Shown: piece after piece, positions 12,216 through 26,346 of the stretch
How positions within the stretch are numbered: position 1 is the stretch's first letter
Layout of the letters: each line of letters starts with the position of its first letter
DNA from: a virus
IMG/VR virus record: IMGVR_UViG_3300050019_000121
Span: 1 to 45,658 of that record
Length of the DNA: 45,658 nucleotides
Strand: one strand, 5' to 3'
Made by a program: the position numbers and the translations under genes
The notes under the pieces: generated by a model
Told to the model about the DNA's origin: nothing
Databases searched by the model: none
Seen by the model: only the letters and a program-made list of their open reading frames with translations

Positions 12216-12833
12216 ATGGGAAATGGCGAAACGCCCAAAGGAGAGTTTATCGGCTATGCCCGCGTCAGCACGGAAGATCAAAACCTCCGACTCCAAACGG
12301 ACGCGCTCAAAGCGGCGGGGTGCCTCAATATCTATGAGGAAAAGATCAGCGGTAGCGGCAAAAAGTCTCGACCGCAGCTCGATCTTGCCATTAAAGACTT
12401 GCGGCCCGGCGATACTCTCCTTGTATGGCGGATTGACCGTCTCGCAAGATCAGGCCGGGAACTTTATTCTAGGCTTGAACAAATCGAGCAGGCACAGGCG
12501 GGGTTCAAAAGCTTACAAGAGGGCTTTGATTTTAGCACTTCGACGGGCCGCTTTGTCCTCGGTATCCTTGGATTGGTTGCGGAGCTTGAACGCCAGATGA
12601 CCATTGAGCGCACCAAGGCCGGGATGGAGGCGCTTAGGGCGCGCGGGTTTACGCTGGGGCGCACAATAGAGTTTGACGCCAAGAAGCAGGCCAGGGCGCT
12701 AAAGATCGCCAAGGCCAAGAACTCGGTAGAGGGGGCGTGCAAGGTGGTGAAGGTTTCTAAGGCCACGTTCTACGGCAAGTTCAAAGTGAAACGCAAAGCG
12801 GGCAAGCTTATAATCACCCGCCGAAAAGCATAG
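12216..12833 (+). CDS. Small serine recombinase (resolvase/invertase family)
   Basis: The 205-residue protein has the resolvase N-terminal domain: GYARVSTEDQNLRLQ with catalytic Ser18, the LLVWRIDRLARSGREL motif with its conserved arginines, and the LAELERQMTIERTKAGMEALRARG segment leading to the E helix. A C-terminal helix-turn-helix follows (about 150-185, VEGACKVVKVSKATFYGKF). Length and order are those of Tn3 resolvase/Gin-like enzymes, which cut and rejoin DNA as dimers or tetramers. It is the only site-specific recombinase recognised here, so it may resolve multimers, invert DNA or contribute to integration. Confidence 0.9.
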   Translation: MGNGETPKGEFIGYARVSTEDQNLRLQTDALKAAGCLNIYEEKISGSGKKSRPQLDLAIKDLRPGDTLLVWRIDRLARSGRELYSRLEQIEQAQAGFKSLQEGFDFSTSTGRFVLGILGLVAELERQMTIERTKAGMEALRARGFTLGRTIEFDAKKQARALKIAKAKNSVEGACKVVKVSKATFYGKFKVKRKAGKLIITRRKA

Positions 12834-23872: not shown

Positions 23873-24010
23873 TCAATCCATGAACATTTCGATCAAGTCG
23901 AGTTGGTTTGCGTCATCGCTGAATAGGCCGTGGTCGCAAGGGGCTTGGATAACTGGGCGCAACTCGCGTTTTTCGGTCCCAACTTTCCAGGGATATGGCT
24001 GCGGTCCCAT
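23873..24010 (-). CDS. Small or truncated reading frame beside the mobile element
   Basis: On the minus strand a frame running from the edge of the element to 23873 reads AYLIWLNSDRMGPQPYPWKVG and ends in LIEMFMD. It looks like coding sequence, with the first ATG at 24010. The frame is closed by a TGA just inside the element, so this may be the 3' end of a gene cut off by the insertion. Confidence 0.35.
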   Translation of the reverse strand: MGPQPYPWKVGTEKRELRPVIQAPCDHGLFSDDANQLDLIEMFMD

Positions 24011-24043
24011 TCGATCCGAATTAAGCCAAATCAGATAGGCGTT

Positions 24044-24069
24044 TCATGCTTATCCGCTTGACACATGCA
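24044..24069 (+). repeat. Left terminal inverted repeat
   Basis: 26 bases starting TCATGCTTATCCGCTT. It matches the reverse complement of 26044-26069 at 23 positions; the three differences are adjacent (positions 17-19). Confidence 0.8.
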
Positions 24070-24128
24070 CCCACTATTGCTATATAGATGGCAGAGGTCG
24101 AAAGGCCCATAGTTAACGGGAGTTGAAC

Positions 24129-24461
24129 ATGAAGGACACAAAAGGACACGGCTCTAACCGGCGCGGGGCAGCCCACAGCGAGGGCATCATGTCGATAGCT
24201 GCCAAATTGCAAAGTTCGTCGTTTGGAGCGCACCTGACACAGTTCCCACGCGGAAAGTTTGGGTTTACGGGCCAAATCCCCGATGAACTGGCTTTTGAGG
24301 CATCCAACCCAAAGTACATTCAGGACGCCAAGAACCACGGGGCCGGATTGGTCGCCAAAGTGGCAGCGAATGAAGGCGGATACCTCCGCACCCGAACATG
24401 GGCCACGCGGGAAGCCGCGCAAGCCGCACAGGATGCGTACAACAAAAAGACGGGAGCCTAG
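24129..24461 (+). CDS. Passenger protein 1, unknown
   Basis: The 110-residue protein starts at ATG 24129 behind GGGAG. It is basic at the N-terminus (MKDTKGHGSNRRG) with a mixed C-terminal half (GFTGQIPDELAFEAS...YLRTRTWATREAAQ). It lies inside the IS1595-like element directly after the left repeat, so it is a passenger and not part of transposition. Not recognised. Confidence 0.55.
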   Translation: MKDTKGHGSNRRGAAHSEGIMSIAAKLQSSSFGAHLTQFPRGKFGFTGQIPDELAFEASNPKYIQDAKNHGAGLVAKVAANEGGYLRTRTWATREAAQAAQDAYNKKTGA

Positions 24462-24464
24462 ATC

Positions 24465-24692
24465 ATGCATAAGTGCTTTGCATGTGATCGGAAATTGGGG
24501 CGCAACCCCTGTCTCGCTGACACAAGAGACGCCCAAATCGTCTATGTTGGCAGTGAATGTTTCAAACTGATTAAGGCTGCTGGCGAGGTAGGATACCAGC
24601 CCCCCAAAGGCGGCCCCCGCCTCTATCTGATCCCCTCTAACCTGACTCAATCCGAGTTGGATGACCTTCATACCGGAGCGGGAAGGGCCTGA
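24465..24692 (+). CDS. Passenger protein 2, small zinc-binding type
   Basis: The 75-residue protein begins MHKCFACDRKLG and has GSECFKLI further on, four cysteines fitting one zinc site, followed by a helical end. It is spaced 3 bases from its neighbours within the mobile element. Function unknown. Confidence 0.55.
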   Translation: MHKCFACDRKLGRNPCLADTRDAQIVYVGSECFKLIKAAGEVGYQPPKGGPRLYLIPSNLTQSELDDLHTGAGRA

Positions 24693-24695
24693 GCC

Positions 24696-24968
24696 ATGAA
24701 CCTCAAAAATCAGCCACCTATCTACATTCCTGACGAACATCGGGCCGAAATCGAAAATCTTTCTAAGGCTGCCTTGATGGACATGGTTTGGGACTGCGCC
24801 ATGCAGATCGCGGGCGTGACTGACCACGCTTTCGACACAGAAAGAAAAACTATCACTGAGTTCCGCAGGCGGCGCGAAATCATCTTGGTTTCGAGACGAC
24901 GGCAATTGGAACTGGAAAGAAAATTGCGCAACCGCGCACTGGAAATGCTTGAAAAAGTACGGGGTTAG
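24696..24968 (+). CDS. Passenger protein 3, coiled coil
   Basis: The 90-residue protein is helical and strongly charged, with RRRREIILVSRRRQLELERKLRNRALEML at the C-terminus. It lies 3 bases before the transposase remnant, in the same transcript. Function unknown. Confidence 0.55.
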   Translation: MNLKNQPPIYIPDEHRAEIENLSKAALMDMVWDCAMQIAGVTDHAFDTERKTITEFRRRREIILVSRRRQLELERKLRNRALEMLEKVRG

Positions 24969-24971
24969 GTC

Positions 24972-25427
24972 ATGGCTCACGACGTTCATCAATGGGAAAA
25001 ACTGCCATTCCCCAAGTCCCTGCCGCAGTTTCAAAAGCTGTTCCCGGATGACGCGGCCTGCGCCCGCTATCTTGAAGGCGCAAAATGGCCTGACGGCTTC
25101 CAATGTCCGCACTGCAAAGCCCGTGGCGAGCCTGTACGCATTGCCAAACGCCCGCTTGTGCTGGCCTGCCGCAAGTGCCGCCTGCAAACGTCCCTGACGG
25201 TCGGCACGGTCATGGAGCGTACCCATACGCCGCTCACGACTTGGTTTTGGGGCGCTTACCTCATTTCCAGCATGACTCCCGGCCTGTCCGCCGTTCAATT
25301 CCAGCGCCAGCTTGGCCTTACCCGGTACGCCACGGCGCATGAAATTTACCGGCAACTCGCATTGATGCCGGTGACAGGTGTGTGTGAATGGAGTATACTC
25401 CGAAACATCCTTATAGGAGTGTCTCCC
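24972..25427 (+). pseudogene. IS1595-family transposase, N-terminal part only
   Basis: Residues 11-130 match the N-terminal region of IS1595-family transposases: FPKSLPQFQKLFPDDAACARY, a zinc ribbon (Cys45, Cys48, Cys66, Cys69), VGTVMERTHTPLTTWFWGAYL and LGLTRYATAHEIYRQL. In family members a DDE/N core of about 150 residues follows; here the match stops after EIYRQLALM at about 25365. The frame has no stop and runs on into the HNH gene, so a 305-residue fusion is possible. It retains target or end recognition at most, not catalysis. Confidence 0.75.
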
Positions 25428-25889
25428 ATGAAGCCCGGCCCGAAACCCAAGTCCGTCGCCAAACGCTTTGAGCGATTTGTCAACTTCAATGGTCCCGTTC
25501 CGGCCCATCGTCCCGAACTTGGTCCTTGCCATATATGGATAGGTGCCAAAAGAGCGGATGGCTATGGTGCAATCACTGTCGCCGGCAAAGTCGAACAAGC
25601 GCACCGCGTGGCTTTCAAACTGGCTGAGGGACGCTGGCCTGATCCATGCGCGCTGCATCATTGCGACACCCGCATATGCGTCAGGCGGTCCCATCTGTTC
25701 GAAGGAACCAAATCCGAGAACACAGCCGACATGGTAAGCAAAAGGCGGGGCACTTCCCGAACACTGACGGCGGCGCAGACCGCTAATATCATCGCCCGCA
25801 AAGCCAAGGGCGAGACACAGATGTCCATTGCGCGGTCGCTCAACGTCAGTGAATCTCTTATATCGCTGACGCTCAGGAGGGCTTCATGA
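25428..25889 (+). CDS. HNH homing-type endonuclease
   Basis: The 153-residue protein has a phage HNH domain: CHIWIGAKRADGYGAITVAG, AHRVAFKLAEG, LHHCDTRICVRRSHLFEGT (His77, His78, Asp80, His89), and NTADMVSKRR. A C-terminal helix-turn-helix follows (AAQTANIIARKAKGETQMSIARSL). The order, nuclease then DNA-binding module, is that of free-standing phage homing endonucleases. It has its own AGGAG and ATG at 25428 but is also in frame with the transposase remnant. It ends with ATGA overlapping the transposase tail. Confidence 0.88.
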   Translation: MKPGPKPKSVAKRFERFVNFNGPVPAHRPELGPCHIWIGAKRADGYGAITVAGKVEQAHRVAFKLAEGRWPDPCALHHCDTRICVRRSHLFEGTKSENTADMVSKRRGTSRTLTAAQTANIIARKAKGETQMSIARSLNVSESLISLTLRRAS

Positions 25890-26053
25890 CCTTTCGCTTC
25901 AATCGCCGCTTCTACCCGTTCAACGCCTTCCGCTCGCTCTTGGGCATCGGCGCAAACGGCGAAAGCCCGACCTATGACGGGCTTTACAGTGGCGAGTGGA
26001 CGCACCCAAACGTCAGTCATGGCACACATCAACCCCTAGAGCCTGCATGTTGA
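25886..26053 (+). pseudogene. IS1595-family transposase, C-terminal tail
   Basis: The 55-residue frame reads MTFRFNRRFYPFNAFRSLLG, then SPTYDGLYSGEWTHP. This is the ending of IS1595-family transposases, where FRFNRR follows the last catalytic segment. It starts at ATGA overlapping the HNH stop, and its own stop lies within the right terminal repeat. It is in a different frame from the N-terminal piece, so the two cannot rejoin by simple readthrough. Confidence 0.7.
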
Positions 26054-26069
26054 AAGCGGATAAGCATGA
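26044..26069 (-). repeat. Right terminal inverted repeat
   Basis: 26 bases whose reverse complement starts TCATGCTTATCCGCTT; partner of 24044-24069. It includes the last codons and stop of the transposase tail. Confidence 0.8.
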
Positions 26070-26070
26070 T

Positions 26071-26346
26071 TCATTGATGATGCGACGCTCCTCGGCCAAT
26101 GCCGAGCGTCCTTGTTCGCGTCTTTTCTGTCTCGACCAATCGCGGGCCACGTTTTATCTCCTTTCGCCATGCGTCAGACAAACGACGTGATCTTACTCGT
26201 TCCCAATCAATTCCGCTGCGCCGCAGCCAATAAGTGATCACCCGTCGCGTTACGCCAGCAAGCTGCGCTGCCTCACCGGGGCGGATTACCCCACGAGCCA
26301 GCATAGCTAAGGCTGCTCGCCTAGCCTCCTGATCGACGCATTTCAT
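26071..26346 (-). CDS. Helix-turn-helix protein, 91 aa
   Basis: The N-terminal half (ALAMLARGVIRPGEAAQLAGVTRRVITYWLRRSGIDWERVR) is a clear helix-turn-helix of the kind seen in small regulators beside terminase genes of Rhizobiales phages. Its stop lies 2 bases from the end of the mobile element. A copy of the 12-bp motif lies 33 bases upstream in the same orientation. Confidence 0.65.
   Translation of the reverse strand: MKCVDQEARRAALAMLARGVIRPGEAAQLAGVTRRVITYWLRRSGIDWERVRSRRLSDAWRKEIKRGPRLVETEKTRTRTLGIGRGASHHQ

Follow-up and report, generated by a model that had tools for sequence, protein, structure and literature searches.

A phage-borne IS1595-type element with an HNH nuclease gene in the position of the transposase DDE core

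The window analysed here, an IMG/VR virus record of 45,658 bases, held one copy of an IS1595-type element in which an HNH nuclease gene occupied the place of the transposase core. Judged from sequence comparison, it is nearly certain that this element has kept the ends, the transposase N-terminus and the transposase tail of its family, and that a phage-type HNH gene with its own HTH has replaced the DDE core. We suggest, with a probability of roughly one half, that it is a non-autonomous, cargo-carrying IS1595-type element of soil phages, whose DDE core was exchanged for the HNH and which is moved in trans by intact siblings. The element was composed of the following features (handles beginning with L denote related loci in other records).

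24045..24076, plus strand: left terminal inverted repeat, with the family start CATGCTTATCCGCTTGACACATGCAC; L002-L005 and L061 carry this end too, next to 8-bp target duplications
24123..24461, plus strand: cargo ORF A, no Pfam or PHROG match
24465..24692, plus strand: cargo ORF B, unknown, no Pfam or PHROG match
24696..24968, plus strand: cargo ORF C, unknown, no Pfam or PHROG match
24972..25328, plus strand: N-terminal zinc ribbon and HTH region of an IS1595-type transposase (codons 1-119), 91% amino acid identity to intact L002 in the matched part
25329..25427, plus strand: 33-codon linker with no clear homology to intact transposases, holding the palindrome GGAGTATACTCC and a Shine-Dalgarno sequence for the HNH
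25428..25889, plus strand: HNH_3 nuclease (HHCDTRICVRRSHL) with a C-terminal HTH, in frame with the N-terminal part and in the DDE core position
25886..26053, plus strand: transposase C-terminal tail ORF, in ATGA overlap with the HNH stop, with AGGAGG 5 nt upstream of its ATG
26037..26068, minus strand: right terminal inverted repeat

A recount of the inverted repeats (24044-24069 against 26044-26069) gave 23 identical positions out of 26, in agreement with the initial annotation. The element span given there, 24044-26069, was right as to the repeats but not as to the outermost base on each side. The family boundary is 24045..26068, one base further in per side, because the relatives begin at CATGCTTATCC, with their 8-bp duplications lying directly against this base. 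The 15-mer CATGCTTATCCGCTT occurred exactly twice in the window, at the two element ends and in inverted orientation, and was expected 0.14 times in shuffled sequence even with two mismatches allowed. The terminal inverted repeats of the window element were common to its relatives. No 8-bp target duplication was found at the window copy, and its flanks (AGGCGTTT and ATTCATTG) differ. A search for the empty site in phages lacking the insertion, which had been proposed earlier, did not recover the exact site among terminase relatives. Those without the element hold the neighbouring small gene and the HTH gene in other orders or with other genes between them (L125 and L138).

The fusion ORF encodes 305 amino acids, combining Zn_ribbon_IS1595 with HNH_3, and the tail ORF encodes 55. 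The zinc-ribbon start recognised in the initial annotation was recovered both by Pfam (Zn_ribbon_IS1595, PF12760, E 5.5e-11) and by the NCBIfam IS1595 transposase model (positions 1-48 of 215). The tail that it had described as ending in the right repeat shared 96-100% identity with the C-terminal end of transposases from intact IS1595-type elements, and both pieces flanking the nuclease are clearly of IS1595 type. The HNH gene, reported to lie in the same frame as the transposase start, does so and matched HNH_3 (E 8.7e-9) and the endonuclease family PHROG 1872 (3.7e-22). The proposal that the DDE core had given way to a DNA-cutting enzyme was borne out by comparison with intact L004. The L004 protein has a zinc ribbon and DDE_Tnp_IS1595 (6e-32), the latter at the position where the window has the HNH, and Pfam found no DDE core (PF12762) in the window fusion. 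The core was replaced, whereas a simple disruption, with an empty site inside the core, would have split it.

Clear transposase homology ended near codon 119 and not at the HNH start, the linker following next, and the tail ORF (25886-26053) lacked the NEF codons of the intact protein. The HNH has its own start (ATG at 25428), preceded by the Shine-Dalgarno sequence TAGGAG, and may also be made alone from this start. In the H-N-H motif both the window and the other HNH copy, L024, have R instead of the middle N, so cleavage activity is uncertain. The similarity in size between the nuclease and the core, pointed out earlier, holds as a measurement (530 against 516 nt), but it is probably a coincidence since element length varies widely. 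The palindrome in the linker, upstream of the HNH start, is perfect over 12 bp (25390-25401) and is possibly a regulatory site brought in with the HNH. A group I intron or other RNA element carrying the HNH was considered and rejected, as there was no Rfam match around the HNH gene in 23900-26200 up to E 0.1. A PDB sequence search with the fusion profile found no match, and the AlphaFold model of the fusion (mean pLDDT 42) was not used.

A viral scan with the first 152 residues yielded 60 related loci. Nearly all of them encode a full transposase, with an N-terminal part to about residue 129, a DDE core of about 516 nt and the tail; the cargo that separates the transposase from the left end varies from element to element. 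Ends of the form CATGC(T/C)T(A/T)TCCGG.. were present in 42 related viral loci besides L024, a few near-duplicates included, as found by paired ends and flanking repeats; exact 8-bp duplications were present in 34. Within the IS1595 family, the IS1016 group is reported to make duplications of 8 bp (PMC10045372). The window copy is thus one of a large set of related IS1595-type elements carried by phages. Some phage contigs contained two IS1595-type elements each (L011, L025).

Several loci were broken. Truncated transposases in two separate phages (L006:15-479 and L055:3608-4063) both end at the HKLRA codon near the HTH end. They were considered as further core swaps and rejected, being truncations without tail or right end. 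L062:5242-6390 has a left end, cargo and a DDE core fragment without the transposase N-terminus, ends near an inverted repeat copy, and is the reverse kind of mosaic. At L004:4430-4726 a second element has left a remnant directly next to an intact one; it consists of the tail and the right end, and a small ORF separates the tail from the repeat.

One of the 60 loci, L024, also had an HNH in place of the core. The initial annotation had recommended looking for the same repeat ends around HNH genes elsewhere, and L024 has both these ends and the same architecture: family ends, three other cargo ORFs unrelated to those of the window, a 307-amino-acid fusion and a tail ORF. Identity between the two elements was 67% in the zinc ribbon, 65% in the HNH and 77% in the tail, and the ATGA overlap of HNH stop and tail start was common to both. 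L024 lacked obvious counterparts of the window's HNH Shine-Dalgarno sequence and tail AGGAGG, so its expression may differ. It lay between two copies of ATCCAAAT, a perfect 8-bp target duplication, and a 75-codon phage ORF was restored when its flanks were joined. The L024 insertion was therefore made by a reaction of IS1595 character. This duplication could predate a core swap in place, the form that moved having been intact, or the HNH form itself could have moved; the single L024 copy is compatible with both. Because the same swap is found in L024, separately derived and with an insertion scar, hitch-hiking elements of this kind seem to recur and not to be a one-off accident.

The window copy and L024 are the only HNH elements known. 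HNH-based scans of viral and genome contigs detected only L024 and distant free-standing HNH genes, and a DNA-pattern search for the ATGA-coupled tail returned nothing. None of the records among 50,697 phages and 72,556 plasmids covered 80% of the fusion, and HNH searches of 385 and 399 genomes found no close relative. Because these scans depended on exact matches to short peptides, their negative results elsewhere carry little weight.

The two HNH elements differed in their junctions. L024 followed L022-type intact DNA to about codon 142, with 97% amino acid identity to intact L022 up to that codon, and its tail resumed at AACGAGTTC. In the window, homology to L002 and L004 was clear to about codon 119 and resumed at ACCTTT. 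The right junctions were about four codons apart. Intact alleles exist, but since the junctions of the two HNH copies differ on both sides, the sequences do not reveal a fixed site of homing.

In the N-terminal tree the window clustered with L002-L005 and L061 (100/99) and L024 with L022 and its relatives (99/95). The HNH elements were thus placed inside different well-supported clades of otherwise intact elements, which forces two changes. In the HNH tree (a sample of 26) the window and L024 proteins formed one group (95/95) that also contained a single truncated row. Between the two elements, dN was 0.25 and dS 2.3 for the HNH, and dN 0.17 and dS 1.14 for the N-termini. The HNH divergence is far greater than that of each flank from its intact neighbours, and cores and flanks therefore have different histories. 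A recent transfer of the HNH from one element to the other appears unlikely, because the HNH proteins are more diverged than the N-termini. On these comparisons the swap would have occurred at least twice, with related HNH genes taken up on each occasion, or a single old HNH core would have passed between lineages through recombination with intact elements; either history yields a mosaic of young flanks and an old core.

The ratio of dN to dS between the HNH copies was about 0.11, with dS near saturation. Since its split from intact siblings, the window copy alone had accumulated four synonymous and two nonsynonymous changes in codons 1-119, and four and none in the tail. The L024-only changes were seven synonymous and two nonsynonymous (one at the junction) in the N-terminal part, and two and one in the tail. 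These counts favour continued function, short of proof because part of the elapsed time precedes the swap.

We suggest that the HNH gene would have been brought into a transposase gene by homing-like or illegitimate recombination. An intact sibling transposase would then recognise the same ends and move the HNH element in trans by the ordinary IS1595 reaction. The window element has intact ends and no transposase of its own, lacking the DDE core, and siblings with the same ends are present in other phages. Movement in trans fits because of the 8-bp duplication and because some contigs contain two elements, and it is probably the likelier half of the mechanism. The exact 8-bp duplication at L024 is of the kind that the DDE siblings produce, and this suggests that a DDE transposase acted either in trans or ahead of the swap. 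As a counterpoint, the window copy is without a target duplication, and its own transposition is thus not evident from the sequence. No helper transposase was found in the window contig or the L024 contig, both of which are possibly fragments.

A second, plausible half of the mechanism is HNH-driven conversion of intact siblings. The N-terminal and tail segments would serve as homology arms, and HNH cutting together with phage recombinases, in the window phage RecT and YqaJ, would convert intact siblings to HNH elements. The zinc-ribbon/HTH fused to the HNH may aim the nuclease at IS1595 elements or their ends. The earlier suggestion that a homing-type gene entered a transposase and eliminated its core agrees with the data and was correct about the core swap, while cutting as the driver is hypothetical. 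Pfam identified a RecT recombinase, a YqaJ exonuclease and a serine resolvase in the window phage (15401-17121, minus strand; 12216-12830, plus strand). The exonuclease listed in the initial annotation is this YqaJ, and the annealing protein that it had named Bet is a RecT by Pfam.

Alternatively, but doubtfully, phage IS1595 elements may often break and recombine, and a common selfish HNH gene may have filled a gap twice, leaving a mosaic with no function now. The other broken copies fit such decay: L006 and L055 stop at HKLRA and lose the right end, L062 retains a core fragment without the N-terminus, and L004 has a tail and right-end remnant beside an intact copy. The lack of a target duplication at the window copy also fits. 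Decay does not readily account for the complete ends, the open in-frame fusion and the open ATGA-coupled tail ORF in both HNH elements. Nor does it account for a window tail with a strong ribosome site (AGGAGG) and only synonymous changes of its own (four to none), or for related HNH genes at nearly the same place in two lineages.

It is unlikely that a zinc-ribbon/HTH-HNH lineage has taken over from the DDE enzyme, binding IS1595 ends or genes and spreading by HNH cleavage and phage recombination to new sites or through conversion of siblings. Slightly less probable still is a homing parasite of IS1595 that cuts the intact transposase gene near the HTH end, uses the N-terminal and tail homology to be copied in and thereby destroys the core; the IS ends would matter only as surroundings of the target, and the element would not be moved again. 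Several observations would suit homing: the HNH belongs to a family of free-standing phage genes, the swap is found in two clades at nearly the same place, the truncated L006 and L055 likewise end at the HKLRA codon, and RecT and the YqaJ exonuclease are encoded by the window phage. However, the left junctions lie at about codon 119 in the window and 142 in L024, the right junctions also differ, and the core was lost and not interrupted. That the HNH is itself the mobility enzyme, the zinc-ribbon/HTH binding the IS ends and the HNH nicking them in place of DDE chemistry, is very improbable: the retained DNA-binding part and ends, the constraint on the fused HNH (dN/dS about 0.11) and the exact duplication at L024 would agree with it, but such an 8-bp duplication is what DDE siblings make, no HNH nicking is known to yield one, the catalytic DDE residues are absent, the motif N has become R, and the scans did not find repeated HNH copies at different sites. 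HNH-driven transposition is thus unlikely, and the earlier idea of a unit moved by HNH cleavage and recombination gained no direct support, the L024 duplication being as from DDE siblings.

Among known systems, the IS1595 family (ZnR-DDE, PF12760 and PF12762; phage-borne L002-L061, ISAcr1-type) resembles the window element in its zinc ribbon, HTH start and C-terminal tail, and in having cargo ORFs before the transposase. The window's ends match those of the phage-borne relatives, and the 8-bp duplication of the family is seen in L024. Unlike these elements, which have the DDE core, the window has an HNH there and no target duplication. Free-standing phage HNH_3 proteins (such as Gordonia phage Bradissa gp60 and Mx9 Orf2) are of the same family, with a C-terminal HTH-like part and 36-39% identity, but they are encoded by separate genes, outside any transposase fusion flanked by IS ends. 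The idea of a nuclease aiding a transposon is most closely paralleled by the KolobokP transposons and the TnpB-bearing IS elements, both of which retain a transposase. KolobokP transposons of animals encode a DDD/E transposase and a His-Me finger homing endonuclease (PMC9587614). Like the window element they are DNA transposons with an acquired homing-type His-Me nuclease, and dual propagation has been proposed for them, but they are eukaryotic, have long terminal direct repeats and keep the DDD/E transposase (PMC9587614), whereas the window nuclease replaces the core. In IS200/IS605 elements TnpB acts as a gene drive, and here too an IS-encoded nuclease could favour the copies bearing the element (PMC11870625). 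TnpB is RNA-guided and accessory to TnpA (PMC11870625), whereas the window HNH is fused to a transposase DNA-binding domain, and Rfam found no known RNA family in the window element. No description of a transposase core replaced by an unrelated nuclease was found in the literature searched. If the fusion is active, it would be either a hyperparasite of IS elements, disarming them and travelling with them, or a step to a new mobility enzyme; because intact siblings share these ends, either reading can be tested.

The three passenger genes annotated earlier between the repeats were confirmed as the three cargo ORFs. None had a family match in Pfam or PHROG. The first ~25 codons of ORF A (leader MNMKDTKGHGSN..) are common to L005 and L062 and the remainder is unique. 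Antisense ORFs of about 550 amino acids in both HNH elements were rejected as genes, all sense ORFs lying in one frame of GC-rich DNA. In 37 of the 60 related loci the transposase start follows an upstream in-frame stop at a distance of 0 or 3 nt (TAAATG, TRANNNATG). The cargo ORFs of the window (junctions at 24459-24464, 24690-24695 and 24966-24971) and of L024 are joined likewise, in one frame. This spacing of stop and start at the cargo and transposase junctions looks as if it reflected either a rule by which cargo is exchanged or a tight coupling of translation.
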